From Clostridia bacterium (GTDB lineage Bacteria; Bacillota; Clostridia; Christensenellales; Borkfalkiaceae), in the NCBI GenBank assembly GCA_017471945.1, contig JAFURH010000011.1:1-34099 (forward strand): a DNA stretch of 34,099 bases, read 5' to 3'. Both the position numbers and the translations under genes were made by a program. A model generated the notes under the pieces. That model searched no databases. It saw nothing but the letters and a program-made list of their open reading frames with translations, and was not told where the DNA came from. Shown here in pieces: positions 5,793 through 33,280 of this stretch (position 1 is the first letter of the stretch; each line of letters opens with the position of its first letter).

Positions 5793-5916
5793 TCCATTCA
5801 TCCTCCGCATAATGGTCGTTGTAATCCGGGTTATAGGACGCAGGACTTGCGGTTACAACGTCGTTTGCCAAAACCAAGCGGAGCTCGATCTTCGGCTGTT
5901 CATAGTTCCTTTTCAT
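5785..5916 (-). CDS. Small 43-residue protein translationally coupled to LRR protein
   Basis: An ATG at 5916 follows a near-perfect AAGGAGGTCAGAAA ribosome site and opens a 43-residue frame. It begins MKRNYEQPKIELRLVL, continues with NDVVTASP, and ends in an acidic, Tyr-rich tail (DYNDHYAEDEWND). The stop TAA at 5785-5787 lies inside the next gene, and the two frames overlap by eight bases (ATGACTAA), the classic geometry of translational coupling. There is no signal peptide or membrane segment. Similar short proteins (Y-E/K-P near the N-terminus, then an LxxxDVVxTS-like segment) are, from general knowledge, common beside surface-protein genes in Clostridia, but their function is unknown to me. 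It may be a leader controlling LRR expression or a small partner protein. Confidence 0.75.
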   Translation of the reverse strand: MKRNYEQPKIELRLVLANDVVTASPASYNPDYNDHYAEDEWND

Positions 5917-11045: not shown

Positions 11046-11058
11046 ATCTCGCTCCTCC

Positions 11059-14154: not shown

Positions 14155-14181
14155 AAATATCTCCTTTTTTTATTTTTTGCG

Positions 14182-14193
14182 GGATACGTATCC
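14182..14193 (-). promoter_or_regulatory. Small palindrome between permease and Ig-protein genes
   Basis: The 12-base palindrome GGATACGTATCC is flanked by GC pairs. It lies in the 44-base gap between the permease stop and the ribosome site of the Ig-like protein gene. It may form a short intercistronic hairpin that adjusts relative expression. No T tract is present, so it is unlikely to be a terminator. Confidence 0.3.
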
Positions 14194-14198
14194 GCCGA

Positions 14199-15104: not shown

Positions 15105-15108
15105 TTTT

Positions 15109-16131: not shown

Positions 16132-16142
16132 CGCTTAGCCTC

Positions 16143-17852: not shown

Positions 17853-17892
17853 TTTCTTTACCTCTACTTTTTATTATTTTTTTATTATCTAC

Positions 17893-17909
17893 ATACGGGA
17901 AGCCCGTAT
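17893..17909 (-). promoter_or_regulatory. Hairpin between LRR lipoprotein and solute-binding protein genes
   Basis: A 7-bp perfect stem (ATACGGG with CCCGTAT) and 3-base loop lies in the 99-base gap upstream of the solute-binding protein gene. No T tract follows on the minus strand (GTAGATAAT). Binding-protein genes often need higher expression than neighbours, and an RNA hairpin here could serve as a processing or stability element. Function is inferred only. Confidence 0.4.
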
Positions 17910-17951
17910 CATATTCTTATATCGTTCGTCTTATAAAGCGTTTTTTGGAAT

Positions 17952-18995
17952 TCAGTTTCGGAAGAAATGCATCGTGCCGTTCGTCCGCAAAAATTCGAGC
18001 GCCGACGCGGAATCGGACAAAACGCTCTCCGCTACGTCCGTTCCTTCCGTCGCCGTGCGGCTATTGGCGTAGAACCAGCCCTGCGCGTTTTCGAATACGA
18101 CGCTTTCTAAGCGTAAGCTGTCCGTGATCGCGTTCGAGCCGAAGTAGGTTACCGCCGCGGGGATCGTTAAAGTTTCCAGATTGTTGCATTTACTGAACGC
18201 ACGCGTTTCGATACGCGTCACCGACGACGGAAGCCCGACCGAAACGAGGTTTACGTTGTTATAAAAAGCGTAATTTTTGATTCTCGTAATCCCTTCGGGA
18301 AGATTCAACGTCGTTTCCTCCCCCAAATACCCCACGAAATATTTGTCCGCGCCTTTCGTAAAGGTGACGTATCCGTTCTCGGCAATATCCAAGCCGCTCG
18401 GCTCGGTTAAAGATTTATGTTCCGTTAAACAATAGGATCTTGCGCCGCTGTCGTCGTTGCCGCTGTAAATATTGAAGGAGGATTCGTTATAGATCTCGAC
18501 CAGACGGTAGGTATAGAAGAACACCATTTTTCCCATCGTTTTCAAGCTTTTGGGCAATTTCACGCACAACAGATAATTGCAGTCCTGAAAAGCGTTCTGA
18601 TCGATCTGCTCCACGGAATCCCCTATATTCGCCCACAGAAGCTTTCGACAGGCTTTAAACGCGCCCTCGCCTATTTTTTCCACGCCGTCGGAAACGACCA
18701 AGCTCGTGATCGCTTTGCCCGTAAACGCGTCGTAGCGGATCTCTTTAACGGGTAAGCCCTTATATTCGGCGGGAATCACTAACGCCTCGTCCGTACAAGT
18801 TCCCATACCCGTTACCACGTAATAGCTTTTGTCTTTGCTTAAAACGTAGGACAGACCTTGACTGCCTTCGACCGTTTCGTCGACTTTCGGAGGAGCGGAT
18901 TCCGAAACGTTCCCGCACGAGGTCAAGCTCGGCGAAACGCAAACGAAACAAACGCATAACAAGATGAGCGCAAACAGTCGTTTGAGTTTTTTCAT
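17952..18995 (-). CDS. BspA-type LRR lipoprotein heading the importer operon
   Basis: This 347-residue lipoprotein has Cys27 in the lipobox SLTSC. After a short linker it consists of LRR_5 (BspA-like) repeats: ITSLVVSDGVEKIGEGAF, VEQIDQNAFQDCNYL, ITRIKNYAFYNNVNL and VTRIETRAFSKCNNL. An interruption sits at about residues 165-225. It is much shorter than the two LRR proteins further down the operon and lacks their WWHF tail and CxxCG linkers. The start is supported by AAGGAGG six bases upstream, and a strong promoter lies 39-66 bases before the ATG. As first gene of the importer operon it may be a surface receptor presenting glycans to the binding protein, though that is inference. Confidence 0.86.
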   Translation of the reverse strand: MKKLKRLFALILLCVCFVCVSPSLTSCGNVSESAPPKVDETVEGSQGLSYVLSKDKSYYVVTGMGTCTDEALVIPAEYKGLPVKEIRYDAFTGKAITSLVVSDGVEKIGEGAFKACRKLLWANIGDSVEQIDQNAFQDCNYLLCVKLPKSLKTMGKMVFFYTYRLVEIYNESSFNIYSGNDDSGARSYCLTEHKSLTEPSGLDIAENGYVTFTKGADKYFVGYLGEETTLNLPEGITRIKNYAFYNNVNLVSVGLPSSVTRIETRAFSKCNNLETLTIPAAVTYFGSNAITDSLRLESVVFENAQGWFYANSRTATEGTDVAESVLSDSASALEFLRTNGTMHFFRN

Positions 18996-19117: not shown

Positions 19118-20509
19118 TTAATGAAAATATTCGGTGAGGTATTCTTTGGTATTTCCCACCATTTTATCGAACAGTTCTCTCGCCTGACAAAGAGGCAACC
19201 GCATTTGCGGATCGTTCGCGAACACCGCAAACGCCTTTTCGAGATCGCGTGCCGCCGCCGCTTGATCGAGCGCCTCCTGTTCCCCTACGATACGCGCTAT
19301 CAACGAATAAATTTCCGTGGGGATATTCCCCGCAACCAAAGGTTTTACCTCGTTGGCTCTGAACGAAGCGTTCGTTTCCACGACCGCGCCGAGCGGAAGA
19401 TTGGGAATTTGTCCTACGTTGGGCAAATTTACGTTCGTCGTCATATCGTGCAAGCCGAGCAAAGCGCGGATCTGGTTTACGCCGTCCTCGCCCGTTTCGC
19501 GGAGCGTGACGGTTTCTTCGCCGCTTCTGAATTTCTCGCTACATTCCAAACGCTCTTTTAAATCTTTTTTTCTCCAATCGACCGTGGTGAGCGCGAACTT
19601 CCAAAACTCCACGCATTCCCTGTCGTTTAAATACCAGTTGGCGGGGCAGAATTCGGCAAGGTGACGATCCCCCGCCGCCGCAATATAGCCGTAACGCTTA
19701 AAAAGATCCATTTTAACGCGTTCCGCTTTGCGCCAACAGCTGTTGAGCCAATTTTCGTCGAAGCGTTCCTCGTAACCCGTCTGGTAATATTTATCGACGA
19801 ATTGCCCGTAAACCTCAAACAAATCGATATTGCGGTAATAGGCGGAAGTCAGCCACGTGAAATGATTGACACCTACCACGTTTACTTTGATATCCTCGCG
19901 CTTTACGCCTTCGACTCCGTACAGCTTATCTAAAATCTTGATCAACAAAGATTGCGTGCCGAACACCTCGTGACAGCAACCGAACGCTTTGATCTGCGGG
20001 AACACGCGATACAGCGTTTTTACGCACATCGTCATAGGATTCGTATAATTGATCACCCACGCGTCGGGACAAACCTCTTTTACGGCAAGTCCGATCTTTT
20101 CGATCATAGGGATCGTGCGAAGCGCGCGAATGATCCCGCCGACGCCGACGGTATCGCCTACCGCCTGATAAATGCCGTATTGCTCGGGCAAATGCACGTC
20201 GGAAGCCATCTCGTCGAACGTGCCCGGCAAAATGGAGATCACGACGAAATTCGCGCCTTTGAGCGCGCTTTCCAACGTTTCGGCGACCTCGTATTCCCAA
20301 TGGGATTTCGCGCCCTCGGCGAGGTTATATTTTTCGCCGATGATCTTGTTATGCTCCGCCGCTTCCCGATCGATATCGTATAAACTTACGACGCCGCTCA
20401 CGTCCTCGCAAGCGACCAGATCGCTCATAAGTCCCCAAGCCCAACCTCTCGAACCGCCGCCTATGTATGCAATTTTTACGTCCTTTACCTTATTTCCGAT
20501 ATACTTCAC
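19118..20509 (-). CDS. lplD: GH4 glycosidase with CHEV motif, probable alpha-galacturonidase (LplD-like)
   Basis: The 463-residue cytoplasmic protein belongs to glycoside hydrolase family 4, which cleaves sugars by an NAD+- and metal-dependent redox mechanism. The dinucleotide-binding GGGS is at 17-20, NYTNP at 154-158, the metal-binding cysteine in CHEV at 179-182, and the partner histidine in NHF (His216). In this family the residues after the Cys track specificity. As I recall the literature, CHEV defines a clade whose characterised members, including Bacillus LplD, are alpha-galacturonidases, whereas CHSV marks alpha-galactosidases. An LplABC-like importer next door strengthens this. I chose GTG 20509 because GGAGG lies eight bases upstream; an upstream in-frame GTG at 20524 overlaps that SD. 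It is divergent from the AraC regulator gene and has the shared operator-promoter. Confidence 0.88.
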   Translation of the reverse strand: MKYIGNKVKDVKIAYIGGGSRGWAWGLMSDLVACEDVSGVVSLYDIDREAAEHNKIIGEKYNLAEGAKSHWEYEVAETLESALKGANFVVISILPGTFDEMASDVHLPEQYGIYQAVGDTVGVGGIIRALRTIPMIEKIGLAVKEVCPDAWVINYTNPMTMCVKTLYRVFPQIKAFGCCHEVFGTQSLLIKILDKLYGVEGVKREDIKVNVVGVNHFTWLTSAYYRNIDLFEVYGQFVDKYYQTGYEERFDENWLNSCWRKAERVKMDLFKRYGYIAAAGDRHLAEFCPANWYLNDRECVEFWKFALTTVDWRKKDLKERLECSEKFRSGEETVTLRETGEDGVNQIRALLGLHDMTTNVNLPNVGQIPNLPLGAVVETNASFRANEVKPLVAGNIPTEIYSLIARIVGEQEALDQAAAARDLEKAFAVFANDPQMRLPLCQARELFDKMVGNTKEYLTEYFH

Positions 20510-20546
20510 AAAAAAATCCTCCACGTATATGAAATTCTTTTTCTAT

Positions 20547-20618
20547 ATTATAACACACCTTTTTCACGATTTCTATAAATAGATTGTCAATCCTCGATTT
20601 TTTTATCGAAATCTTGCG
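20547..20618 (-). promoter_or_regulatory. GH4 promoter with AraC-type direct-repeat operator
   Basis: On the minus strand a perfect -10 TATAAT (20547-20552) lies 17 bases after a poor -35 TAGAAA (20570-20575). Just upstream are GATTGACAA (within 20584-20592) and CGCAAGATTT (20609-20618). Their GATT cores are 21 bp apart, two helical turns, as in AraC-family tandem sites. The whole 72-bp region matches the promoter at 31776-31847 at 52 positions without gaps. A weak -35 with an adjacent activator site suggests inducible control. Confidence 0.72.
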
Positions 20619-20685
20619 GTGTTTTCCCGCACCCTGAGCCTACGAATATTTTATCACGTTTTGCTTCAATTTTTCTATAAAATAC

Positions 20686-20714
20686 TTGCTTTCTTTCAAA
20701 AATTATGTTAAAAT
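20686..20714 (+). promoter_or_regulatory. Promoter of the AraC regulator, possibly giving a leaderless mRNA
   Basis: TTGCTT (20686-20691) and TAAAAT (20709-20714) are spaced by 17 bases. Transcription would start at about 20720-20722, at or within a few bases of the ATG at 20724. No Shine-Dalgarno sequence is visible before that ATG, unlike almost every other gene here. Confidence 0.5.
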
Positions 20715-20723
20715 ATTGCTACT

Positions 20724-21554
20724 ATGAAAAATGAACTTATCAATACGGTCAACGCTTCGAAGGTTTATATTTTCGACAGGAATATCTATTTTGAAAAAAG
20801 ATCCTCCGTGTCGAATATGACGGAGCTACATTATCATCACCATTATGAAATTTATTATTTGCTTTCGGGACAACAAAATTATTTCATCGAGGATTCCTAT
20901 TACGCAATGAAAAAAGGAGATTGCGCGTTGATCCCGAAAGGCACTATTCATAAAACGACGAACGGTATGGGCGGGCTACGAATCCTTTTAAACTTCAACG
21001 ATAAATTCTTGAATCAATACCTTTCCCATCGCGCCGTTAAAATGCTTCTGAAAACGTTTGAAACGCGGATCGTCAGACCGACGGCGGAAAAGGCGAAGGT
21101 TCTTATCCCCTATTTCGAAAAGATCAACGAAGCCTCTAACAATCAAGACAACGACGGCTTGTTTTTATATCTTTTGAAACTGCTCGTCACGTTGCAGGAT
21201 TGTCCTACCGTCGAATATAAATCCGATCAAGCGCATCCGCCGCTCATTCACAAGATCACCGAATACACGCAAAAAAACTACGATAAAATAACAAATCTGG
21301 ACGACGTGGCAAACGCGCTGTACGTATCCAAATATCATATTTGCCACTTATTTACCAAGCATTTCGATCTGCCGTTCAACAAATATTTAACGAAAGTACG
21401 CTTAAAAAACGCGGAAGAAAAATTATTGACCACGAATTTGAACGTTTCGGAGATCGCGGAAAGCTGCGGATTCGATACAACGACGTATTTTTGCTACGTA
21501 TTCAAAAAAGAATTCGGTATCTCCCCTTTAAAATATAGAAATCTATTTAAATAA
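20724..21554 (+). CDS. AraC-family transcriptional regulator with cupin sensor domain
   Basis: This 276-residue protein is the only clear plus-strand gene. Residues about 1-150 form a cupin-like sugar-sensing domain with the His-rich strand ELHYHHHYEIYYLLSGQ and GDCALIPKGTIHKT. Residues about 172-276 form the double helix-turn-helix of AraC/XylS proteins: first helix pair around LDDVANALYVSKYHICHLFTKHF, second around VSEIAESCGFDTTTYFCYVFKKEFGISPLKYR, both well conserved. It sits divergently between two minus-strand sugar-cleaving operons whose promoters share a 21-bp-spaced direct repeat, so it is the likely activator of both. The inducer is probably an imported sugar or breakdown product. 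No SD precedes the ATG. A 14-bp bidirectional terminator follows. Confidence 0.92.
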   Translation: MKNELINTVNASKVYIFDRNIYFEKRSSVSNMTELHYHHHYEIYYLLSGQQNYFIEDSYYAMKKGDCALIPKGTIHKTTNGMGGLRILLNFNDKFLNQYLSHRAVKMLLKTFETRIVRPTAEKAKVLIPYFEKINEASNNQDNDGLFLYLLKLLVTLQDCPTVEYKSDQAHPPLIHKITEYTQKNYDKITNLDDVANALYVSKYHICHLFTKHFDLPFNKYLTKVRLKNAEEKLLTTNLNVSEIAESCGFDTTTYFCYVFKKEFGISPLKYRNLFK

Positions 21555-21562
21555 ATCAAAGA

Positions 21563-21598
21563 AAAATCACGATTGCCGCGTGTTGCAATCGTGATTTT
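21563..21598. terminator. Bidirectional rho-independent terminator
   Basis: A perfect 14-bp stem (AAAATCACGATTGC at 21563-21576, complement at 21585-21598) has an 8-base loop. It is T-rich on both exits: TTTTCTTTATCTTT on plus, TTTTTCTTTGATTT on minus. It lies between the convergent AraC and GH2 genes and can end both transcripts. Confidence 0.88.
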
Positions 21599-21606
21599 CT
21601 TTATCT

Positions 21607-24033
21607 TTATTCTTCGGTTAAATACGCCTTAGCTCCCAGCCAATATTCGAGGCTTTCCACCGGGGCGTTATCCAACTCCCAAAACTGCGTCATCATTCTT
21701 TCTTTGACGGGTTTTTCCGCTTTCTTTTTAAGGTAGGCAACAAACGCTTCTTCGGAAAGTCCGTTTACGGGGCGGAATTTTTGCGAATGAAGATAGCCTT
21801 TTATAAACCGTGCCATCGCCACCGTGGACGGTTCGTTTTCGTCAAGTCCCGTCAAGTTCAAGCCGCAAACGAGTAAACTTCCCTCTCCTATCTTCAATTC
21901 AAACAAATAGGAAAAATCGCGCAGCGTATACTCGTATTGCAATTCGGATAAATTGAAATATTCTTTGTCGGGATCGAAGCGGTCGCGCGCGCATTTATCG
22001 CTTCCCGAAATCAAGGATCGCACTTTCGCGGGGAAATCGTCCAGATTGATCTTGTCGCAATCTTCGGTAATCTTGGCGTAGTTGAAATCGTAGTACGCGT
22101 CGGTAGTAAAGCCGAATTCGTTTAAAAGCACTTCGTCGCAAAGTCCGCCGCAATTCGTACCTCTGTCCCAGATGACGGGTTTGAAACGGTTCCACGTGGC
22201 GTTAAACGCATACTTCGGATTGGGCATTTTTTTATCGAGCAGATGCCGCGTCCAAGCGCTTCGATATACAAGACAGACCTTTTTCCCCTCTTTCAGAAGG
22301 CGCAACGCCGCGTCGATATCGTCCGTGATCGCCACGTCGCCTTTGCGATAATTGCAAAAATCCGAATACGAACCTTCTTCACGTTTGGGATACAGCCACA
22401 CCTTCCATTGATTTTCCGCAAACACGCCGTTTTCGTTTTTCAGCGAAGCGGTCAAAACGCACTTTTCGGGAATTTCAAGCTTCGGCAAGAAAATCTTTAT
22501 CTTACAAATCGCATAGCTACCCTTTTTCTTCACAGGGATTGCGTGAAGTTTCCCCGAAGCGTATACTTTTCCGCTCGTTCCCGCAAAGGCATATTCGAAA
22601 TCGGCGAATTCGTCCTTCTTTTGCCCGTAGTTGGAAAGCAGAAAAGGCACGGTCCACACGCCTTCGGATACGTAGATCCTTTCGTTGATATCCGCAAGCA
22701 GAACTTCGTCGCCGTTGAATTTTTGAAAGGCTTCCGCCGTAACGTAATTTTCCTCGTCGAAGCAATCCACGATCCCATTGGAATTTTCATATAAATGCGT
22801 ATCCGCGAATTGCAAACAATGGAAGCCGCCGATCAACCTGCTCATACGCATTTTTTCAAACGCAGTCTTCCAACATTCGTATTGAAAAAGCTTGCTCGCC
22901 TTGTACATATCTTCATAACGGTCGGTCATTCCCTTCGCTTCGATGAGTTTGAGCTCCTCGTCTATCCACCAAGGCTCTGCCGTTTTGTAGTTTTTAAATT
23001 TTTCTTTGAGCTTTTTGAAATCGCTGAGCGCCACGTAGTGGCAAACCTCGTGCGCAAGCAACGGAACGTCGAACGTGAACGACTTCGTCGCTACGGAATT
23101 AACGCCTTCCCTTTCCGTTTCCGAACCGTCCGCACAGCCGCAAACGAGCAGATTGTCCGTATTTTCGTACATATCCGAGTGTTTGCCAAAAGGGAAATAA
23201 TAGCTCATATGCTGTACGTCGATATCCACGTTATCTCTGCCGTGCGCGCCCCAAGCCGCCGTATCGATAAACAATCTCGTATCGTCTATCGATTTGATCA
23301 GCCGCCCGATCTCTTTTACACGCTCGTTATCTTCCAGCCATTTTATCTCGTTGCCGATACAATAGACCGCAAGAGAAGGATGATTATACAGCGAATCGAC
23401 GAGCCGTTTAAGAAATTCGTCGCTGACGAACTCGTTTCTCGCTTTGAGCATTTCTTCCTGATTGTTATACGCCGCGTTCGGATCGCGCATTTCCATATGG
23501 ATCAATATCCCCTCCTCGTCTGCGACCTGAAAGAACAACTCGGAAGGAATAGTGGAATGAAAACGGATAAAATTGAATCCGTACCGCTTCGCCTGCCTGA
23601 TATTTTTCCGATAAAATTCCGCTTCGGGAAGGTTACAGGTATTGATATGGTCGTGGCATTTCTCCCCTCGTATGTAGCCGCGAATAAAAATAGGCTCGCC
23701 GTTCAAGCATACGTTCTTTCCTTGGGTGGAAATCGAACGGATACCGAACGTGCCGTTCGCGGTTTCCACTCCGTCCGCATTTTCCGTTTCAAGAGTATAC
23801 GCATACAACGACGGCGCGTATACGCTCCACAATTTGGGATTTTCCAGTTTCATATCCGCCGTGAATTCGCCGCCGCCGACCGCGTACGAAAAATCCCATT
23901 TCCGTTCCGTGCCTTGTTCTTCCACGTGAAAGCGCAAGCTTTTTATCGTTTTCGCCGAGGAAACCGTAAGCCGTACGTTTCCTGCGCAATCGTTACTGTT
24001 GATTTTTATAACCGTTCCTTGTTCCGTAATCAT
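21607..24033 (-). CDS. Glycoside hydrolase family 2 enzyme lacking the N-terminal jelly-roll domain
   Basis: The 808-residue protein starts directly in a GH2 Ig-like domain (about 10-100, ending GTFGIRSIS). The TIM barrel follows from about 105 (VCLNGEPIFIRGY). The acid/base is Glu229 in YCIGNE and the likely nucleophile Glu329 in PLLAHEV. A further roughly 400 residues hold beta-sandwich segments and, near 730-760, the strand ELKIGEGSLLVCGLNL seen in C-terminal domains of large GH2 proteins. Most GH2 enzymes begin with a sugar-binding domain of about 170-200 residues; here AAGGAG eight bases before ATG 24033 and the esterase stop only 18 bases upstream leave no room for one. No signal peptide, so cytoplasmic. 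Beta-galactosidase, beta-glucuronidase and others are all possible. It is the last gene of the operon, before the bidirectional terminator. Confidence 0.85.
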   Translation of the reverse strand: MITEQGTVIKINSNDCAGNVRLTVSSAKTIKSLRFHVEEQGTERKWDFSYAVGGGEFTADMKLENPKLWSVYAPSLYAYTLETENADGVETANGTFGIRSISTQGKNVCLNGEPIFIRGYIRGEKCHDHINTCNLPEAEFYRKNIRQAKRYGFNFIRFHSTIPSELFFQVADEEGILIHMEMRDPNAAYNNQEEMLKARNEFVSDEFLKRLVDSLYNHPSLAVYCIGNEIKWLEDNERVKEIGRLIKSIDDTRLFIDTAAWGAHGRDNVDIDVQHMSYYFPFGKHSDMYENTDNLLVCGCADGSETEREGVNSVATKSFTFDVPLLAHEVCHYVALSDFKKLKEKFKNYKTAEPWWIDEELKLIEAKGMTDRYEDMYKASKLFQYECWKTAFEKMRMSRLIGGFHCLQFADTHLYENSNGIVDCFDEENYVTAEAFQKFNGDEVLLADINERIYVSEGVWTVPFLLSNYGQKKDEFADFEYAFAGTSGKVYASGKLHAIPVKKKGSYAICKIKIFLPKLEIPEKCVLTASLKNENGVFAENQWKVWLYPKREEGSYSDFCNYRKGDVAITDDIDAALRLLKEGKKVCLVYRSAWTRHLLDKKMPNPKYAFNATWNRFKPVIWDRGTNCGGLCDEVLLNEFGFTTDAYYDFNYAKITEDCDKINLDDFPAKVRSLISGSDKCARDRFDPDKEYFNLSELQYEYTLRDFSYLFELKIGEGSLLVCGLNLTGLDENEPSTVAMARFIKGYLHSQKFRPVNGLSEEAFVAYLKKKAEKPVKERMMTQFWELDNAPVESLEYWLGAKAYLTEE

Positions 24034-24051
24034 AAAAACTCTCCTTTTTTC

Positions 24052-25074
24052 CTAAATAAACTCTTTTCGTATCCTTTCCCAAACGATATCCTCGCACCAA
24101 TAATGCCCTTTCGGCGATACCGTTAATCGGCAATTAGCTTCCGCGCCGACCCGCTTATAAATTTCTTTGACCGTTTCAAAGCTTTTCTTTACGCCGTCTA
24201 TGGGAAAGATGGGGTCTTCTTTTCCCGCGATCGGGAGCAATTTTCTCGGCGCGATCAAGCAAGCGAGGTCTTCCATTTCAAAATACTCGTAAGCGCCGGG
24301 AATAAAATTGCAGGCGCAATGGACTACGTTCATAATCGAATCTTTATAGTTGCAAAAGGCGTATCCCGGGGCGACTGCTTTGATTCGTTCGTCAAAGCAA
24401 CCCGCATAAAACGACGTAGTACCACCTCCCGAACCGCCCGTGATCGCAATTTTTTCCGTATCGCATTCGGGGAATGTTGACAAACAGTCTATCGCACGTT
24501 TTATATCCCAAACGCGTTCGCCCACGAGCGTTCTGCCGAGCTCCATTGCGCGGAGCGCCGTAAATAAACAGATTTGATTGGGATAGGTACGATTGCTTTG
24601 CTTGGATTTTCGTTCCCCCATTCCTCTTTGTTCGATCGCCAACGCGATATAGCCGCACTGCACCGCTTGCAAGGCGAGCGAGTTTCTGGGCTGGGAATTT
24701 TTATCCCGCTCGAACTTTATCTCCCCGATACAGAGATGAAATCCCGTTGAATGACCTTGCAAAACGATCGCGACGGGATATTTTTTCTTGCCCGTATTCG
24801 GAATTAAAAGATAGCACGGTACGGTCGCGCCCGACTCGCTTTCGAACGTAAAACGGATCTGCGTATAGCCGTCCTTTTCTTCTTTTCCCTCGATATCGAT
24901 ATTGAGAGGGCAACCTTTCGCGTTTTCTTGAATCTGATCGAGCCCCGTCAGTTCGATAAATTTGGCTTTGACAGAACGCTTCCAGTCCTCGTAGTCGCAA
25001 TCGCTTCGATACGCGAGCTTTTGCCGCGTTTTTTGCACCAGCAAATCGTGACATAAATCGCCGTTTACTTTCAT
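24052..25074 (-). CDS. Alpha/beta-hydrolase esterase, tandem paralogue 1
   Basis: A 340-residue cytoplasmic alpha/beta-hydrolase, the 3'-most of three tandem copies. An upstream extension to 25167 is open, but the start at 25074 is preferred: it gives the same N-terminus as its paralogues (MKVNGDLCHDLL) and follows AAGGGA. The oxyanion-loop motif LQGH is at 105-108, the nucleophile elbow GGSGGG at 213-218 (Ser215), the acid candidate Asp287 in GKEDPIFP, and the base His324 in PKGHYW. The fold and motifs resemble the acetyl-xylan-esterase/dienelactone-hydrolase-like group, so deacylation of imported sugars is likely, but the ester and sugar are unknown. It lies 11 bases after paralogue 2 and 18 bases before the GH2 gene. 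Confidence 0.85.
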   Translation of the reverse strand: MKVNGDLCHDLLVQKTRQKLAYRSDCDYEDWKRSVKAKFIELTGLDQIQENAKGCPLNIDIEGKEEKDGYTQIRFTFESESGATVPCYLLIPNTGKKKYPVAIVLQGHSTGFHLCIGEIKFERDKNSQPRNSLALQAVQCGYIALAIEQRGMGERKSKQSNRTYPNQICLFTALRAMELGRTLVGERVWDIKRAIDCLSTFPECDTEKIAITGGSGGGTTSFYAGCFDERIKAVAPGYAFCNYKDSIMNVVHCACNFIPGAYEYFEMEDLACLIAPRKLLPIAGKEDPIFPIDGVKKSFETVKEIYKRVGAEANCRLTVSPKGHYWCEDIVWERIRKEFI

Positions 25075-25085
25075 AAGTCCCTTCC

Positions 25086-26105
25086 TCACGACAGCTCTTT
25101 GCCTATTTCCGACCAAACGATCTCCTCGCACCACCAATGCCCTTTGGGCGTTACTGCCAGACGACAATTTTCTTCCGCGCCGACGCGTTTATAAATTGCC
25201 TTCACCGTTTCAAAGCTTTTCTTCACGCCTTCGATCGGGAAGAGCTTATCTTCTTTCCCTGCGATTACAAGGAATTTTCTCGGTGCGAGTAAACAAGCAA
25301 GATCGTGCATTTCAAAATATTCGTAAGCGCGCGGAATATAATTGCAATTACAATGATAAACGTCCATAATGGAGCTTTTATAACTGCAAAAAGCGCAACT
25401 GGGCGCAACGAGCTTTATTCGCTCGTCTATGCAACCTGCGTAAAAAGCCGTCGTACCTCCCCCCGAATTACCTGTGAGCAAAATTTTATCGGTATCGCAT
25501 TCGGGGAACACGGACAAGCAGTCTATTGCACGCGTTATATCCCAAACTCGTTCCCCTACGAGCGTTCTGCCGAGCCCGATCGCGCGGAGCGCCGTGAAGA
25601 AACAGAGTTGCCCGTCGTCGAGCCGCATTTTCTCTTGAGAAGAGCGCTCGCCCAACGCCCTTTGTTCGAGCGCCAACGCGATATAACCGTTTTTGACCGC
25701 TTGCCGAGCAAGGGCGCTGCAAGCCGCGAAAGTTTGGTCGTTTTCTTTTAAATCGTCGATAGATTTCTGGAAAAACGCCGTGTGCCGCTCCAAAGTGATC
25801 GCGACGGGATATTTTTTCTTGCCCGTATTTGGAATCAGAAGATAGCACGGGACAACCGCGCCCGGCTCGCTTTCGAAAGTAAAACGGATCTGCGTATAAC
25901 CGTCCTTTTCTTCTTTTTCCTCGATATCGATATTGAGAGGACAACCTTTCGCATTTTCTTGGATTTGGTCGAGTCCCGTCAATTGGATAAATTTCGCTTT
26001 GACCGAAGCTTTCCATTCCTCGTAGTCGCAACCGCTTCGATACGCGAGCTTTTGCCTCGTTTTTTGCACCAACAAATCGTGGCATAAATCGCCGTGTACT
26101 TTCAT
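25086..26105 (-). CDS. Alpha/beta-hydrolase esterase, tandem paralogue 2 (divergent active-site loop)
   Basis: This 339-residue middle copy shares the N-terminus, the GNSGGG nucleophile elbow, the GKEDKLFP acid region and the PKGHWW histidine motif with its neighbours. The segment at about 105-165 is strikingly different: LQGH has become LERH, and the following loop (TAFFQKSIDDLKENDQTF) cannot be matched to the other copies. Further on the conserved YPNQIC is LDDGQLC. The catalytic triad looks intact, so the change most likely alters substrate choice or oxyanion geometry rather than destroying activity. SD GAGGAGG eight bases before the ATG is excellent. Spacing is 11 bases on each side. It probably acts on a different ester position or sugar than copies 1 and 3. 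Confidence 0.85.
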   Translation of the reverse strand: MKVHGDLCHDLLVQKTRQKLAYRSGCDYEEWKASVKAKFIQLTGLDQIQENAKGCPLNIDIEEKEEKDGYTQIRFTFESEPGAVVPCYLLIPNTGKKKYPVAITLERHTAFFQKSIDDLKENDQTFAACSALARQAVKNGYIALALEQRALGERSSQEKMRLDDGQLCFFTALRAIGLGRTLVGERVWDITRAIDCLSVFPECDTDKILLTGNSGGGTTAFYAGCIDERIKLVAPSCAFCSYKSSIMDVYHCNCNYIPRAYEYFEMHDLACLLAPRKFLVIAGKEDKLFPIEGVKKSFETVKAIYKRVGAEENCRLAVTPKGHWWCEEIVWSEIGKELS

Positions 26106-26116
26106 AGTTTACCTCC

Positions 26117-27142
26117 TCAAGATAACTCTTTGCCGATTTCCGACCAAACGATATCCTCGCACCACCAATGCCCTTTGGGCGTTTGCACCAGACGACAATT
26201 TTCTTCCGCCCCGACCCGTTTATAAATTTCCTTCACCGTTTCAAAGCTTTTCTTCACGCCTTCGATGGGGAAGATAGGGTCTTCTTTGCCCGCGATCGGA
26301 AGAAATTTTCTCGGCGCAATCATACAAGCGAGATCTTCCATTTCAAAATATCCGTAAGCGCCGGGAATATAGTTACACGTACAATGCACGACGTCCATAA
26401 TCGAAGTCGCGTAGCCGCAAAAAGCGCAACTGGGCGCAACGAGCTTTATCCGCTCGTCTATACAGCCCGCGTAAAACGAAGTCGTCCCCCCGCCCGAATT
26501 GCCCGTGATTAAAATTTTATCGGTATCGCATTCGGGAAATTCCGACAAGCAATCTATTGCACGCATTACGTCCAAAATACGTTCGCCGATAAGCGTTCTA
26601 CCAAGTCCGAGTGCGCGGAGCGCCGTAAAAAAGCAAATTTGATTGGGATACTTACGCATTTTTGCCGTCGAAGTACGTTCTCCCATCGCTCTTTGTTCGA
26701 TCGCCAACGCAACGTAACCGTTTCTTGCCGCTTGCACCGCAAACGCGCCTCGGGGCTGATAAGCTTCGTCGCGTTTCAAACGAATCTCCCCGATAGAGCC
26801 GTACATACCGCCTAAATAATGTCCTTGCAAGGTAATCGCGACGGGGTATTTTTTCTTGCCCGTATTTGGGATCAGAAGATAGCACGGCACGGTCGCGCCC
26901 GGCTCGCTTTCGAAAGTAAAACGGATCTGCATATAGCCGTTCTTTTCTTCTTTTCGCTCGATATCGATATTGAGAGGACAGTCTTTTGCGCTTTCCAGAA
27001 TTTTATCAACCCCCGTCAATTCGATAAATTTCTCTTTAATCGAACGCTTCCAGTCCTCGTAGTTGCAATCGTTTCGATAAGCGAGCTTTCGTCGCGTTTT
27101 TTGCACCAGCAAATCGTGACATAAATCGCCGTTTACTTTCAT
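26117..27142 (-). CDS. Alpha/beta-hydrolase esterase, tandem paralogue 3
   Basis: This 341-residue copy is the first transcribed of the three. It keeps LQGHYLGG in the oxyanion loop, GNSGGGTTSFYAG at the nucleophile, GKEDPIFP at the acid and PKGHWWCED at the base. It is close to copy 1 over the loop and to copy 2 in the segment GCIDERIKLVAPSCAFC and the C-terminus (IVWSEIGKELS), so similarity among the three is mosaic. No signal peptide is seen. SD AAGGAG precedes ATG 27142, with 10 bases to the GH95-like gene. Function is inferred as for paralogue 1: removal of acyl groups from imported oligosaccharides. Confidence 0.85.
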   Translation of the reverse strand: MKVNGDLCHDLLVQKTRRKLAYRNDCNYEDWKRSIKEKFIELTGVDKILESAKDCPLNIDIERKEEKNGYMQIRFTFESEPGATVPCYLLIPNTGKKKYPVAITLQGHYLGGMYGSIGEIRLKRDEAYQPRGAFAVQAARNGYVALAIEQRAMGERTSTAKMRKYPNQICFFTALRALGLGRTLIGERILDVMRAIDCLSEFPECDTDKILITGNSGGGTTSFYAGCIDERIKLVAPSCAFCGYATSIMDVVHCTCNYIPGAYGYFEMEDLACMIAPRKFLPIAGKEDPIFPIEGVKKSFETVKEIYKRVGAEENCRLVQTPKGHWWCEDIVWSEIGKELS

Positions 27143-27152
27143 AGTTTTCTCC

Positions 27153-29360
27153 TTATTGCTTTAAAATTTCCACTCGACCTTTCGGCAACGTTATTTCAAA
27201 AATTTCCCCTTTTTTCGCTTTGATTGCGCTCGTTTTTCCCTTTTCGATCGCGTACAAAATATCCGAATCGAAATTATTCAAAATTTTTACGTTCGTGGTC
27301 TTTCTGCTTTCCAAAACGATTTTCCGCACCGCGCCTTGCGCCAACTCCGCGCTCACAAGCACGCCGTTATAGCTCCGAAGCCGACGGAAGGAGGCTTTCT
27401 CTTTCCATTCCTCCGCGATCGCGGGAAATACTTCGATATATCCGTTATGTTCTTGCAGGAGCATTTCTTGCAAGGCGTCGCAAAAACCGAACGAGCTTTC
27501 GAGCGTGAAGGGTCGATAATGCCATTGCGAAAAACCGTAGTTTTTAAAATCGCCGTTTAAATGGAAACCGTTATCGGCAACGAAGCCTTTTGCAAAAGCG
27601 CGTAATTTTTCATACGCCGCGTTGCCGTTATGCGCCATTGCGTATAGCTGTGCGCACATTGCAAAAGAAAATCCTACCCACCAACCCGTGCCGAGCTGTT
27701 CTATATGTAACAGCGTATTTTCATAGATCCTTTTGTGCGCCGCCGTGTCGTAATTGAGAAGATGGAGAGGATACATACACATCAAATGCGAAAAATGACG
27801 ATGGGATTCGGGCAACCGCTGCGTTTTGTCAAGCAACACCACTCCCTCGCCGTCAACGGCGATATCGTCGAGTTTTTCGAGAATGATCGCGTACCTGCCC
27901 CCCGCTTTTCCTAAAATTTCCGAATAATTTTTCAAGGTTTTATACAGATAAATAAGGAGCGAAAGATCAAAGTTCGAATTGGGTTTCAAGTATGCCCGCA
28001 GGGTATCGTCGAAAATTTCGGGCGAAGAAGAAAGCGGTAAATAAAGCTTCCCTTCTTTTTCTTCCAACAATCCGAAAACAGCTTCCCCAACTTCTTTAAA
28101 AAAGGGATAGGCTCTCGTCCGCAAAAATTTCTCGTCGCCCGTATACAGCCAATATTCGTCGAAGCTTTGCGCCGCCCAGATCGTCATCGTGGGCGAGCAA
28201 GAATACTGCGTCCAACCGCTTATAGGGTTGCCGCCGAGCGTAGACGTTGCGGGAAGCAACAAGCCGTCAACGCCGTAAAATTCCTTAGCGTACCGTTTAA
28301 AGCGGTCGCGTAAATTCCAAAGATATTCGATAAAACAACTCCCCTCTTCCAAGCGGTTTGCTTTTAAAAAGGACTGGTAGGAAAGCTGCGTGTTCGTATC
28401 GTGGTGATAATCCCCTCGCCAAGGAGGAGGGCAATCGTCGTCCGCCGTCCAGACTCCTTGTAGCGGCATCGGATAAAAGCCTTTACGCGAACAGGAAGCA
28501 AAGAGATAATAAGAGCGGTAATAGGTCTTTTCCAGCAACTCTTCGCCTATGGAAATTTCCGATTTCGACCAATACCGTCTCCACCACGCAATATGCTCTT
28601 GTTTGAGGAACTCGTAGCCGAGAGCCGCCGCGCTTTCCAGCTCCTTTTTCGCCGCGTCGATGAAATCTCCGTCGTCTTTGTTCGTCGCGATCGTATAATA
28701 AAGCTCGCTATATTCCTCTCGTTCCTTTCGTAATACGACGATACCGAAGGAAAAATCTTCCAACGTCGATTGGATATAATACGTAAAATCTTTCTCCTTT
28801 ACGATCTTCGCCGACGGATATTGCAAACAATCCCCCGCACCGTCCAGCTCTTGATCGGAAAAGTAGTTCGGGATATGCAGATCGAGCGTATATTCGCCCC
28901 ATACCCTCGCCACGCCGATAAACTTCGTCGCACTTAAAAACAGTTCCGCTTTCCCCGCTTTTCCGCGTTCGATCTCCACGGACGCTACTGCGTTCCGAAG
29001 AGAAAGGCGACTGATAAGCTCCTGCGTTTTTACGACGAAATTGAGTTCTATCCGCCCCGCCGTCAATTTGGTAGGGTACGCTTTTTTCGGCCGCATACGG
29101 AAAGGAAGAGAGTTTTCTTGCCAATTTTCTTCGTTTGACTTCTTTACGGTTTCCGTAAGCGCTTTAAAAGTAAAATTATCGTTAGCGGTACACGGATGCG
29201 GGCGCTCGTCCCATAAATCCACGCGATCCACAGAAAGTTTTAAAGGTCCGCCGTCGCCGTAAACGAGCGAACCGAGCTTACCGTTTCCAAGCGGGATCGC
29301 CTCGTCCCAGTTCGTAATACTTTGAGCTGAAAATAGGTCGTATTTCTTCAAACTTTTCAT
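27153..29360 (-). CDS. GH95-like glycosidase with altered catalytic residues
   Basis: The 735-residue protein has the GH95 layout. The N-terminal beta-sandwich opens NWDEAIPLGNGKLGSLVYG (residues 17-35), an alpha/alpha-barrel spans about 250-640, and a C-terminal beta domain follows. The barrel carries the family motif ESHRHFSHLMCMYPLHLL near 518-535 and the acid Glu448 in SSSPEIF. Two GH95 hallmarks are changed: the Asn-x-Asn pair is Asp321-Thr-Asn323 in YHHDTNTQLSY, and the Asp of PFQIDGNFG is Glu621 in RPFTLESSFG. GH95 enzymes remove alpha-L-fucose or alpha-L-galactose by inversion; this one may have another specificity. A DUF5703-type assignment for the N-terminal domain is an alternative. 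ATG 29360 is chosen over TTG 29387 because GAGGAG sits six bases before it. No signal peptide. Confidence 0.78.
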   Translation of the reverse strand: MKSLKKYDLFSAQSITNWDEAIPLGNGKLGSLVYGDGGPLKLSVDRVDLWDERPHPCTANDNFTFKALTETVKKSNEENWQENSLPFRMRPKKAYPTKLTAGRIELNFVVKTQELISRLSLRNAVASVEIERGKAGKAELFLSATKFIGVARVWGEYTLDLHIPNYFSDQELDGAGDCLQYPSAKIVKEKDFTYYIQSTLEDFSFGIVVLRKEREEYSELYYTIATNKDDGDFIDAAKKELESAAALGYEFLKQEHIAWWRRYWSKSEISIGEELLEKTYYRSYYLFASCSRKGFYPMPLQGVWTADDDCPPPWRGDYHHDTNTQLSYQSFLKANRLEEGSCFIEYLWNLRDRFKRYAKEFYGVDGLLLPATSTLGGNPISGWTQYSCSPTMTIWAAQSFDEYWLYTGDEKFLRTRAYPFFKEVGEAVFGLLEEKEGKLYLPLSSSPEIFDDTLRAYLKPNSNFDLSLLIYLYKTLKNYSEILGKAGGRYAIILEKLDDIAVDGEGVVLLDKTQRLPESHRHFSHLMCMYPLHLLNYDTAAHKRIYENTLLHIEQLGTGWWVGFSFAMCAQLYAMAHNGNAAYEKLRAFAKGFVADNGFHLNGDFKNYGFSQWHYRPFTLESSFGFCDALQEMLLQEHNGYIEVFPAIAEEWKEKASFRRLRSYNGVLVSAELAQGAVRKIVLESRKTTNVKILNNFDSDILYAIEKGKTSAIKAKKGEIFEITLPKGRVEILKQ

Positions 29361-29405
29361 TGATTTCTCCTCGCAAAACGCGTTCAACTCATACCTGTCC
29401 CGCCG

Positions 29406-31745
29406 TTATTTTTCTTGAACGACGATAAACAACCCTTGATTTTTAGGAATTGCGGTTTCGTTCCCGAGCGTTTGTTCTTTCTGGAAACGATCGATAAAAG
29501 GACAATAGAGGGAATATTTCTCCGATCCCTTTATCGAAATCTTTACCCGAACGTCTTTTTCCGAGAAATTCGCAAGCGCAATATACCTTTTACGCCCGAG
29601 TTTATAAAGCGTTGCTTTTATTTCGGGCTGATCGCATTCCACTTCGTTTCTCTCGTTCCAAAATCCGAGCATTTCACATTCGCCGAGGTTATATTCGTCA
29701 AAGATCCGCCACAAATTCGAAGGATCGGCGCGATTTTCCACGTCCGTCCAACCAAGCCGCGTAGTCATTCCGAAGACGAGCCCCTTCCATTGATTTGCCT
29801 TTTGCCAATTTGCCTCCAACATTTCACTCATCAAACCAAACGGAATCCCGCTCATCTCCACGAGCCAAAAATCGGGAGAGGAATCGTAATCGAAGCCCTC
29901 ACCAATCCAAAGCTTATCTATATACGGGAATAATTCCGCATACAAATACGCACAGCTCGTATTTCCCGCAAGATCGTCGAAATTATGATTCCAAGTATGA
30001 AAATCGATATAACGCCCCTCTCGCTCGTCCAAAACCTTTCTGACCCGTTTCATCGTATCCCGATCGTAGGCGACGTCGTCGATATATAATCCGTCGAGAT
30101 CGGCATAAGAAAGCAAATTCCGCAGCCCTTCGATATAAAAATTGCAAAGTCTGGAACAGCCGTTTGTGATCACGGAAGAATCGTATTCGTCCTTATATTT
30201 TTTTCCGCGCAAAACCTGCCGCCACGCAGGGATGACGTCCTCGCCGATATGGTTACGGATCCAGTCTTTTGCCTCGCTTTGCCAAAACTCGCCGTCAACG
30301 TTTTCCTTCGGCTTTTCAAAAATTTCGTAGCCTAAATCCCGAAATGCGGAAAATTCGGGCGTATTGATCGTCAATTCACGAATCGTATAATAGATTTTTA
30401 CTTTTATCCCCTCCGCGTGAGCGGTTTCCACGAACTTCGCCAATTCCGCGCTTTCAAAAAACGGATAATTGATGTAAGGGTTTAAATCGTTCCCGTGATG
30501 CACGTTAATCATATTTGCGCCCTTTTCTTTGGCGATTTGAAACCATTCTTCGGGTTGTCCGTCAAGTTTATGATACAGCCGCATTTGCAATTGTTTTTTT
30601 AAATCGATTTCTTTGATAGGGGTAATCAGCATACTAAAAGAAAAACAAGCCTGTTCTCCCGCCGCAAACGTTTTTTCGCCCGTATAAGCGATAAATTCGT
30701 CGTCTTCAAACCGAATCCCACCTTTTCCATCGTTCGCCCAACTATCAGGCAAACGAAGCGGTTTATGCGCGTAATAGATATTGACGAGCGGTTTGCGGTA
30801 ATTTTCGGCTTTAAATTGTATTTTCAAGCCCGCGTTTACGTTGCCCGTCCAAAAACCGTCCTGCTGTTTTTTCTCATTCCATTTCCAATCCAACTTGCCG
30901 TCAAACAAGCCGCCGTTCCTACCTAACCCCATAAAATATTTACGGCAATATCCGCTCACGGGAAGCGTTAAGCGAATATCGTCCGCCGTAACCGCGCGTT
31001 TCGCCGTAAGCGTCATTTTATAAGAAACGAAACCGTCGAATTCCGCTTCCGCTTGCATAGTCCAGAAAAAATCCTTACTGTCGTTTTCAGAAAAAATAAC
31101 GGCTTTGTCGTTTTTACTTTCTATGCGCAAGCGACGATTTTCAAAAGCTTGCCCGCTTACTTCAAAACGCATAGCGTCGGATAAAATTTCCGTTGCCTTA
31201 CTTTCGACTTTTATTCCTTGCGTAAAATAGCTGTTTATCGAAGACGGCAAGCCAAGACTTCCGATCGCAAGTTCACGCCCGAACAAACCGATCGTTTTAT
31301 CGCTTGCTGAAACGGGCAAGAACGGGGCGGGAATTTCGTCGTCGATCGCATAATCGGAATTCAACCACACTAAGCGGCGAAGACTGTAAATATCGTTAAA
31401 TTGCGCGTCGTCCGCAACGGCGTCCGTCGTAATGAGCGCAATATTTCGCGTAGAAATACGCTCGCCGTTTTCCTTATAAAATGCAACGACGACCGATGTT
31501 TCCCCTGCTTTTTCGGGAGCTTTGACGTAAAACCAAAGCTTCTTTTCCTCCGTCGCTTTTAATTCAATCGCGCGTTTGAACTCATTCCCCAAATAATCTC
31601 TTCCTTCCGAAGATAAACAACCGCCTTCCGCTCCGGATAATTCCGCATAAAGAGCTATATCCTCTTCGCTTTTTACGGTTAAGGAAAAAGCTTTTATTTC
31701 GCCTTGCGCCAACACAAATTTTTCGTCCGTCCAATCGATTTGCAT
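29406..31745 (-). CDS. DUF6067 / GH123-like glycoside hydrolase-type protein
   Basis: This 779-residue protein is the first gene of the operon. The region of about 125-170 (SLRRLVWLNSDYAIDDE, then FGRELAIGSLGLPSSI) matches the N-terminal GH123-like domain of DUF6067 proteins. A TIM-barrel-like part covers about 400-700, with strands such as MINVHHGNDLNPYINYP, GIKVKIYYTIRELTINTPEF, DLDGLYIDDVAYDRDTMKR and KLWIGEGFDYDSSPDFWL, rich in Asp and Glu suited to catalysis. A small C-terminal beta domain ends the chain. Members are called glycoside-hydrolase-like from structure prediction; I know of no settled reaction. There is no signal peptide, so it acts in the cytoplasm on imported material. The shared AraC-type operator-promoter lies 30-100 bases upstream and 45 bases separate it from the GH95-like gene. 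Confidence 0.78.
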   Translation of the reverse strand: MQIDWTDEKFVLAQGEIKAFSLTVKSEEDIALYAELSGAEGGCLSSEGRDYLGNEFKRAIELKATEEKKLWFYVKAPEKAGETSVVVAFYKENGERISTRNIALITTDAVADDAQFNDIYSLRRLVWLNSDYAIDDEIPAPFLPVSASDKTIGLFGRELAIGSLGLPSSINSYFTQGIKVESKATEILSDAMRFEVSGQAFENRRLRIESKNDKAVIFSENDSKDFFWTMQAEAEFDGFVSYKMTLTAKRAVTADDIRLTLPVSGYCRKYFMGLGRNGGLFDGKLDWKWNEKKQQDGFWTGNVNAGLKIQFKAENYRKPLVNIYYAHKPLRLPDSWANDGKGGIRFEDDEFIAYTGEKTFAAGEQACFSFSMLITPIKEIDLKKQLQMRLYHKLDGQPEEWFQIAKEKGANMINVHHGNDLNPYINYPFFESAELAKFVETAHAEGIKVKIYYTIRELTINTPEFSAFRDLGYEIFEKPKENVDGEFWQSEAKDWIRNHIGEDVIPAWRQVLRGKKYKDEYDSSVITNGCSRLCNFYIEGLRNLLSYADLDGLYIDDVAYDRDTMKRVRKVLDEREGRYIDFHTWNHNFDDLAGNTSCAYLYAELFPYIDKLWIGEGFDYDSSPDFWLVEMSGIPFGLMSEMLEANWQKANQWKGLVFGMTTRLGWTDVENRADPSNLWRIFDEYNLGECEMLGFWNERNEVECDQPEIKATLYKLGRKRYIALANFSEKDVRVKISIKGSEKYSLYCPFIDRFQKEQTLGNETAIPKNQGLFIVVQEK

Positions 31746-31775
31746 ATTTCACCTATACTTGTTGAAATTAAATAT

Positions 31776-31847
31776 ATTATAGCATATTCGATTAACATTT
31801 TCTATAAATAAGTTGCCAATCTTTTATATTTATATAAAAATCTTGCG
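31776..31847 (-). promoter_or_regulatory. DUF6067-operon promoter with AraC-type direct-repeat operator
   Basis: On the minus strand -10 TATAAT (31776-31781) and weak -35 TAGAAA (31799-31804) are 17 bases apart. GATTGGCAA (within 31813-31821) and CGCAAGATTT (31838-31847) lie upstream; the sequence AAGATT occurs twice at 21-bp spacing. Geometry is identical to the GH4 promoter at 20547-20618. The start codon is about 30 bases downstream of the -10. Confidence 0.72.
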
Positions 31848-31999: not shown

Positions 32000-33280
32000 T
32001 TAATATTTTCCAATAGCCTGTTTTTTTGAACTAACACGTTCTACATAACCTAAATCTTTTAAGATTTTTTCATTTTTCTTAATACATTGTTGACTTAAAG
32101 ATAATTTTTCGGATAATTGTATAACCGTAAGGCTCGAATCCTGTTTTAACAATGCAAGTATTTTTATTTGCGTTGTATTCAATTTATGGTCTACTTTTTC
32201 GGGATTCAACTCATAATTATATGGAATAGAAACCCGTAAAAAATTATCCATAAAAGTAAATACTTCTTTGTTATATTTGTCCACGACCAGTAAAACCCCG
32301 TTCCCGTTTGTTCAATTAAACCGAGCTGTATAAAAATCCTCGTCAATATGTCGTGTACGGGACGACTTATTCCGCTGAAAAAGTCTGTTTTACTTAAATT
32401 GTGCGGCAATCCGTCCGTCGAAATAATTTCCAAGTGATCGGAAAACAAATAAACAGCAGGGGGAGTTCCGTCTTTCCAATCATTATGCAGACAAGCATTA
32501 AACCATACCTCACGGAAAGCGTCCGTATCAAATAAGCGTATGTCTTTTCTTATTCCATTTTCAAAAAGCGTTTTTGTTTCATTGATAACGTCCACGCAAT
32601 AATCAAAGGCTTCCTGCATTGCCACTATCAAGCATTTGTAGCCGTATTCATTCCGTCGAACGATATTGCTTGCTTTCGTTGTGCCGTCAAATCTAACGAC
32701 CTTTATAGAATAATCGTTTTTATCTGCCAATAACTCTGCTTGCAAATTATATAAGCCATTTTGATTTTTTAACTTTAAGTTTTCTTCAAAACTTTCTTCG
32801 TTGAGTGTCAGCCCTCGACTTTTATATAACATTCTCAAATAGTCAAAAGTCCGACTTTGTGTTCTTGCATCCATATCAATTATGCGAACTTTTGCTTTTG
32901 ATAATTTCCAATGATAATTTTCAATTTGTTCTTCGGTCATACTACGGCTACTTGTTCCCATACGAACATAACAGCCGTTTGTGCTTCTACCGTATTTTTT
33001 GATATAGTAAAGGGCGTTGCCCTTCTTTACTTTTACTTCGACAACGTGTTTTCCGTCCACGAATTTCGTTCCGATTTCTACAAATTCCTGTGGATTAGGT
33101 AAAATCTGCGTGGTTACTATATCGGCAATCTTTTTCAATGTATCGTCAAGATTATTAATGCCGATAACACTTCCGTCATCTTCCACGCCTATATAAATTC
33201 AAAAACGCAACGAGTGTCTTTTCAAAGGTATCGTTGAGTATTCTTTTCAATTCGACGGTTTCCGTTTCTTGAAATTTCAT
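32000..33280 (-). pseudogene. AlbA_2/ATPase-type (COG2865-like) transcriptional regulator, two frame-breaking lesions
   Basis: The original start is ATG 33280 after AAGGGA. It opens with an AlbA_2 (Schlafen-like) domain (ETETVELKRILNDTFEKTLVAFLN), but the frame then runs into TGA. The continuation YIGVEDDGSVIGINNLDD lies in another frame, and the usual hinge (about five residues, with GG) is absent, so a deletion of roughly 16 bases is likely. A second break near 32296 falls in a GGGG run at LIEQTGTG; restoring one G joins it to VLLVVDKYNKEVF and the C-terminal winged-helix (residues like TTQIKILALLKQDSSLTVIQLSEKLSLSQQ). The middle keeps the ATPase-like AVYLFSDHLEIISTDGLPHNLS. The region is more AT-rich than its neighbours and its genes look foreign. 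An assembly error could explain the G loss but not the deletion so easily. Confidence 0.82.

Follow-up and report, generated by a model that had tools for sequence, protein, structure and literature searches.

What controls the two operons headed by a GH4 gene and a GH123_N-domain gene on contig JAFURH010000011.1 (assembly GCA_017471945.1), a 34,099-nucleotide stretch from a Clostridia bacterium of the family Borkfalkiaceae referred to here as the window, is a question raised by a 72-bp sequence that recurs in front of both. A preliminary description of the window proposed that this sequence is bound by an AraC-family regulator encoded between the operons and that its half-sites are GATT cores spaced 21 bp apart. 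The analysis presented here argues for the same regulator, adds a third copy of the element lying over the regulator's own promoter, and places the half-sites of the predicted operator 30 bp apart.

Two operons share an operator-promoter block

Ungapped alignment of 20547 to 20618, preceding the GH4 gene, with 31776 to 31847, preceding the GH123_N gene (both on the minus strand), recovered the 52 identities over 72 bp originally reported. Each copy contains CGCAAGATTT, GATTGRCAA, the 12-base block TATTTATAGAAA, and a TAGAAA-17-TATAAT core promoter, and in each the GATT cores are 21 bp apart as an exact GATT-N17-GATT. In dinucleotide shuffles of both intergenic regions the best ungapped 72-bp match averaged 36.0 identities (standard deviation, 1.6; maximum, 44), with none of 1,000 shuffles reaching 52, and a reverse-complement control gave 36. 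When the GH4 copy was used as a BLAST query against the whole genome, the second copy was found with an E value of 1.9e-6, and the other 10 matches listed had E values of 0.28 or higher. The exact pattern GCAAGATT-N17-GATTGRCAA occurs at two sites in the 2,038,028 bases of the genome, both of them the reported ones; with up to three mismatches there were 16 matches versus 8 in a reversed control, the 14 extra matches all being at three mismatches. Similarity between the two copies falls off immediately beyond the 72-bp block, which points to a sequence held under constraint more than to a segment duplicated recently. These results support an operator-promoter common to the two operons. An Rfam scan of the window at gathering thresholds gave no match.

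A third copy covers the promoter of araC

Side-by-side reading of the intergenic regions of relatives of the regulator revealed a third operator copy, missed in the preliminary description, at 20649 to 20720 (minus strand), over the promoter of the regulator gene itself and 102 bp from the GH4-proximal copy with which it shares the GH4/araC intergenic region. It matches the copy at 31.8 kb at 42 of 72 positions and the GH4-proximal copy at 35 of 72; as the latter value is close to the shuffle mean for a best match (36), the copy was recognizable through the relatives and not through its neighbor. An operator profile built from 10 copies outside the window found 20648 to 20719 in a genome-wide search with an E value of 1.7e-9, and within the window the three copies ranked 1 to 3 (39.1, 17.9, and 17.8 bits), followed by a match of 6.8 bits. 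Except when compared with L187, the third copy has more in common with the outside copies than do the two reported ones (for example, 39/47 with G009, 36/47 with G499, and 37/47 with G632). The earlier view of a two-operon regulon holds in that both operons share the operator, but it is incomplete, since a copy over the promoter of araC brings the transcription units involved to at least three.

In the third copy, GCAATATTTTAACAT is followed 30 bp on by GCAAGTATTTTATAG and then by TAGAAA, 18 bp, and TAAAAT. The same plan emerged from an alignment of 14 copies (3 from the window and 11 from outside it), in which the conserved unit reads GCAAtATTTtA, about 19 bp, GCAA-N4-TTTATAGA, about 17 bp, and TATAAT, with the starts of its two boxes 30 bp apart. 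In the window the element and its promoters are located as follows.

20603 to 20617, minus strand: GH4-proximal operator box 1 (GCAAGATTTCGATAA)
20573 to 20587, minus strand: GH4-proximal operator box 2 (ACAATCTATTTATAG), 30 bp from box 1
20547 to 20575, minus strand: GH4 core promoter, TAGAAA-17-TATAAT, with TG before the -10
31832 to 31846, minus strand: GH123_N operon operator box 1 (GCAAGATTTTTATAT)
31802 to 31816, minus strand: GH123_N operon operator box 2 (GCAACTTATTTATAG), 30 bp from box 1
31776 to 31804, minus strand: GH123_N operon core promoter, TAGAAA-17-TATAAT
20705 to 20719, minus strand: distal operator box 1 (GCAATATTTTAACAT), overlapping the araC -10
20675 to 20689, minus strand: distal operator box 2 (GCAAGTATTTTATAG), 30 bp from box 1 and overlapping the araC -35
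20686 to 20714, plus strand: araC core promoter within the distal operator, TTGCTT (20686 to 20691), 17 bp, TAAAAT (20709 to 20714)

Both hexamers of the araC promoter therefore lie inside the distal copy, a geometry suited to autoregulation. An opposite-strand promoter directed toward araC (TTGnnn-17-TAnnAT) was present in all 11 araC-adjacent copies, its -35 supplied by box 2 and its -10, which is TAAAAT in 8 of the 11, by box 1. The two window copies located away from araC have kept both boxes, with the reverse -10 decayed (CGAAAT and AAAAAT versus TAAAAT). The araC -10 of the window ends 9 bases ahead of the ATG given in the annotation, and the stretch from 20709 to 20724 shows no ribosome-binding site; araC may therefore have a leaderless mRNA or begin at a later codon.

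The conserved repeat is 30 bp

When 15-column stretches of the profile were correlated with each other at offsets from 11 to 41, the score was 20.9 at 30, 4.9 or less elsewhere, and 2.0 at 21, a contrast inflated to some degree by alignment anchors that were set by us and that favor an offset of 30. Restricting the comparison to the eight nontandem outside copies gave 20.6 at 30, at most 6.6 elsewhere, and 2.0 at 21. An anchor-free rule that used no profile, requiring [GT]CA[AT]nAT and then [AGT]CAA 30 bp on, was satisfied in 10 of 13 regions upstream of the window's clade of regulators (described below) and in none of 19 regions of its sister group. At spacings of 21, 28, 29, 31, and 32 bp, no more than one of the 13 clade regions fitted the rule, the figures at 21 bp being 1/13 and 0/19. 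Genomes G499, G632, G497, G534, G623, and G543 had been found through protein similarity and not through the motif, and they provide a check that is independent of the anchors. None of the other 12 aligned copies has the GATT pair, so that neither the GATT half-sites nor the 21-bp phase put forward in the preliminary description describes the conserved motif; the repeat departs from the 21-bp tandem arrangement of AraC-type operators and measures 30 bp, where the methods section of PMC8579813 gives 32 bp for a three-turn class. The best-conserved columns include the G and C of box 1 (1.8 and 2.9 bits) and the last G of TATAG in box 2 (1.6 bits), and both the box-1 GC and the box-2 TATAG fall outside the -35 and -10 of araC.

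The operator accompanies one clade of regulators

The regulator (20724 to 21554, plus strand) has an N-terminal cupin/AraC_binding domain and a C-terminal HTH_18 domain by Pfam, with E values of 1.7e-20 for HTH_18 (residues 196 to 273), 3.9e-8 for AraC_binding, and 3.3e-8 for Cupin_2. Relatives were collected with a profile of four regulators (E ≤ 1e-45), which matched 48 of 301 genomes of the family; 32 of the 58 matches listed, those with loci, were placed in a tree and 26 were left out. One branch with 100/100 support united 13 rows, including the regulator of the window. Upstream of these 13 regulators, the operator profile matched at full length with at least 20 bits in 12 cases, 9 of which are training copies of the profile; the untrained positives were the window's distal copy (39.1 bits), L189 (23.0 bits), and L186 (20.1 bits), and the miss, L194 (8.9 bits), was likewise untrained. 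At L189, where the araC start had been called too far upstream, the operator was also recognized on rereading. None of the 19 sister loci carried the operator, the profile reaching 7.5 bits at most. The intergenic sequences of the sister group differ from those of the clade, and most of its members lie beside genes that we take to be UxaB-like. This distribution supports the assignment of the operator to the regulator at 20724 to 21554.

Among 10 relatives whose neighborhoods were laid out, GH4 is the gene directly divergent from araC in six (L060, L061, L212, L213, L214, and L216) and lies farther along the divergent genes in L063 and L217; no GH4 gene was seen within the available stretch of the L215 and L218 neighborhoods. 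An esterase gene comes after GH4 in L060, L063, and L214, and binding-protein or permease homologs are present in L061, L215, L217, and L218. A search for relatives of the regulator in viral contigs gave five pattern stretches, none of which is a relative.

Two further observations concern individual relatives. At L063 (G000:C84, 10600 to 10960), two operator copies 128 bp apart lie in tandem between araC and its target, a second case of this arrangement, and in these copies TATATAG is shifted by one base. L061 (G000:C33) and L062 (G016:C58) are AraC-GH4-transporter loci with matching gene lengths and an identical operator stretch in two genomes of the genus, a likeness that suggests recent transfer or assembly sharing.

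Occurrence of the operator in other genomes

The redefined pattern was searched in three sets of genomes. In the 301 family genomes, five matches without mismatch were found, all in G000 and G499, both of which bear the clade (two in the window and one each at G000:C33, G499:C37, and G499:C38), and 10 of the 14 matches with up to one mismatch were in clade genomes. The 57 genomes of the genus contained four matches without mismatch, at three araC-GH4 loci and the second operon of the window, rising with one mismatch allowed to six, at five araC-GH4 loci and again the second operon. All three exact matches in 396 genomes of the order were in G000. The perfect copy at G499:C38:10538 is on a contig different from that of the regulator, with a short-chain dehydrogenase gene on one side and, on the other, a 546-amino-acid gene that has no match in Pfam and precedes an EamA transporter; tblastn of the window's regulator and 17 window proteins against its 3-kb locus found nothing. 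The loci with one mismatch in clade-free genomes (G570, G627, G644, and G620) likewise contained no homolog of the regulator or of the 17 window proteins within 2 to 3 kb.

In nine genomes of the sister genus g28 (L245 to L248, L250, L254, L255, L260, and L263), closely similar TTGC...TATAAT promoters, each preceded by a block resembling CATAAAATNGTTGC, half-match the operator profile; these may be one orthologous promoter. A match to the profile in the window's own genome, at C17:95925, precedes a frame that by eye looks like an ATPase and was rejected as a chance AT-rich match.

Proposed mechanism and alternative explanations

We consider it probable, from comparison of the sequences, that the element is the operator of the AraC regulator at 20724 to 21554, which as a dimer on the 30-bp boxes would activate both operons and limit its own promoter. 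The dimer would occupy a pair of boxes in direct orientation, GCAAkATTT and RCAA-N4-TTTATAG, that begin exactly 30 bp, or about three helical turns, apart. Box 2 of the GH4 copy (20573 to 20587) overlaps the -35 at 20570 to 20575, and box 2 of the GH123_N copy (31802 to 31816) overlaps the -35 at 31799 to 31804; because the downstream box thus lies over a weak -35 (TAGAAA), class-II-type activation is proposed for the GH4 operon and for the GH123_N operon 11 kb away. Since box 1 holds the araC -10 and box 2 the -35, regulator bound to the distal copy would silence araC or restrain its expression. A galacturonate-containing (pectic) oligosaccharide, which would be handled by the LplD-like GH4 protein and the ABC transporter, is the probable inducer, because the closest solved relative of the GH4 protein, which contains the GH4 domains, is the alpha-galacturonidase LplD (PDB 3fef; 475 bits, the next structure scoring 108 bits).

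Three other explanations were weighed. Recognition by this regulator of GATT half-sites at a 21-bp spacing, in the usual two-turn AraC geometry, agrees with the exact pair in both reported copies and with the 21-bp periodicity that PMC3870299 gives for AraC-family motifs, including those of several rhamnose regulators, but the lack of the pair in every other aligned copy, together with the self-correlation and the box rule, makes this very unlikely. Still less likely is a block consisting of just two overlapping back-to-back core promoters, those of araC and GH4, with no specific operator. The araC-ward promoter in all 11 araC-adjacent copies and the resemblance of weak profile matches elsewhere to ordinary promoters are what such a block would give, whereas the conserved box-1 GC and the last G of TATAG lie outside the araC hexamers, the detached copies of the window retain their boxes although the reverse -10 is gone, and the 30-bp box pair is missing from the 19 sister loci, where the araC promoters are divergent as well. 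For these three reasons a protein site in addition to the araC promoter is favored. Least likely of all, in our judgment, is a scheme in which another AraC paralog (that of C33 or C84), or else a different regulator, is the main binder of the copies and the neighboring araC is incidental; although a single genome holds three AraC-GH4 loci with related operators, each paralog is adjoined by a variant of its own (TCAATATTTT at C33; GCAATATATTAC and TATATAG, with the one-base shift, at C84).

Besides the anchoring of the alignment noted above, a number of results weigh against the operator of a single AraC regulator with a 30-bp repeat. Three AraC paralogs with similar operators are present in this genome (C32, C33, and C84), and any one of them may bind a given copy. 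Part of the footprint is the araC core promoter, which would be conserved even without any operator, and the detached proximal copy at C84 retains its reverse -10. The remote copy at G499:C38 also sits between two divergent genes, and several weak profile matches among the family genomes resemble simple TTGC...TATAAT promoters. Scored genome wide with the outside profile, the GH4-proximal and GH123_N copies (17.3 and 17.9 bits) are no better than background, a probable chance match scoring 20.6 bits. Counted by pattern mismatches, L180, L186, L187, L188, and L189 (4 to 7) overlap the sister loci (4 to 8). One-mismatch matches outside clade genomes in the family numbered 4 versus 3 for the reversed pattern; in the genus, the 15 two-mismatch matches versus 14 in the control (two or fewer mismatches) read as background; and the looser pattern is not specific, since in the order 11 one-mismatch matches lay outside G000 versus 2 for the reversed pattern. 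Finally, a 30-bp spacing was not specially enriched in a wider set of 77 regions upstream of AraC genes, from the sister group and from more distant relatives, occurring in 6 versus 1.9 expected with a similar excess at 9, 20, 29, and 32 bp; a general 30-bp rule for AraC upstream regions was therefore rejected, and the claim is limited to the clade of the window.

A broader picture has about an even chance of being right. A clade of AraC regulators in uncultured gut Clostridia would use a three-turn, 30-bp operator whose boxes double as the regulator's own -35 and -10 and as the site from which the divergent target is activated; a single 48-bp sequence would thus act as operator, autorepression switch, and bidirectional promoter, and detached copies that shed the regulator-ward -10 would then recruit distant operons.

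Comparison with known systems

AraC of Escherichia coli binds half-sites 21 bp apart at araBAD/araC and forms DNA loops. The operator described here resembles that system in having direct half-sites by the target -35, several sites within a single intergenic region, and a putative autoregulatory site over the promoter of the regulator gene, and it differs in its 30-bp spacing. According to PMC5806209, CdhR and GbdR of Pseudomonas aeruginosa recognize GGTCGC half-sites with a 15-bp spacer (a 21-bp period) upstream of the promoter, as class I activators. As described there, CdhR is a close functional parallel, being an AraC-family activator divergent from a catabolic operon, with two direct half-sites and proposed repression of its own gene; unlike in CdhR/GbdR, the boxes in the window are 30 bp apart and box 2 lies over the -35. 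In PMC8579813, AraC-type tandem-repeat motifs of Caldicellulosiruptor were searched with a 21- or 32-bp periodicity. These also belong to polysaccharide-use loci of Gram-positive anaerobes and are wide-spaced tandem repeats upstream of promoters, read as activator sites; the period of their three-turn class is 32 bp, versus 30 bp in the window.

Literature searches returned no title reporting this operator. It is standard in the AraC family for a regulator to be divergent from its target, to bind direct half-sites, to activate, and to repress its own gene, and the less usual features are the 30-bp period and the full overlay on the regulator's own core promoter. Overall, apart from its three-turn repeat, the system resembles other bacterial sugar switches and fits ordinary AraC biology. 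The results correct the half-site geometry suggested by hand reading and give a testable predicted binding motif and regulon for a pectin-type utilization locus of an uncultured gut lineage, and the existence of operator copies with and without the regulator's promoter offers a natural comparison for separating regulator-binding bases from promoter bases.

Predicted target operons and neighboring genes

The extent of each operon was deduced from the order of open reading frames.

19118 to 20524, minus strand: GH4 enzyme, first gene of the left operon (Pfam GH4, 1.2e-55)
9165 to 18995, minus strand: rest of the left operon, with an LRR_5 surface protein, an ABC substrate-binding protein, two permeases, a 1,031-amino-acid protein (weak Ig-like match), and a DUF4838 protein
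29406 to 31745, minus strand: GH123_N-domain protein, called DUF6067 in the preliminary description, first gene of the right operon (Pfam, 1e-215)
21607 to 29387, minus strand: rest of the right operon, with GH95, three esterase-like paralogs, and a GH2-like protein

The esterase genes that adjoin GH4 in three relatives (L060, L063, and L214) are in the window part of the second operon, which is preceded by a separate copy of the operator; it looks as though the regulon was divided in two and the operator duplicated. The three tandem esterase-like genes (Abhydrolase_7/AXE1; 24052 to 27142) are 75 to 77% identical to each other, a recent-looking triplication, and the frame at 24052 to 25167, which has a TTG start and overlaps its neighbor, was probably called too long. 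Three BspA-type LRR_5 proteins are encoded on the strand of the GH4 operon (3564 to 5810, 6003 to 9149, and 17952 to 18995) and are possible surface binders of the substrate. A bidirectional terminator-like hairpin (21562 to 21599) lies between the convergent araC and GH2-like genes, and a gene resembling AlbA_2 (Schlafen) and the C terminus of RecG (32206 to 33186) is located upstream of the second operon.

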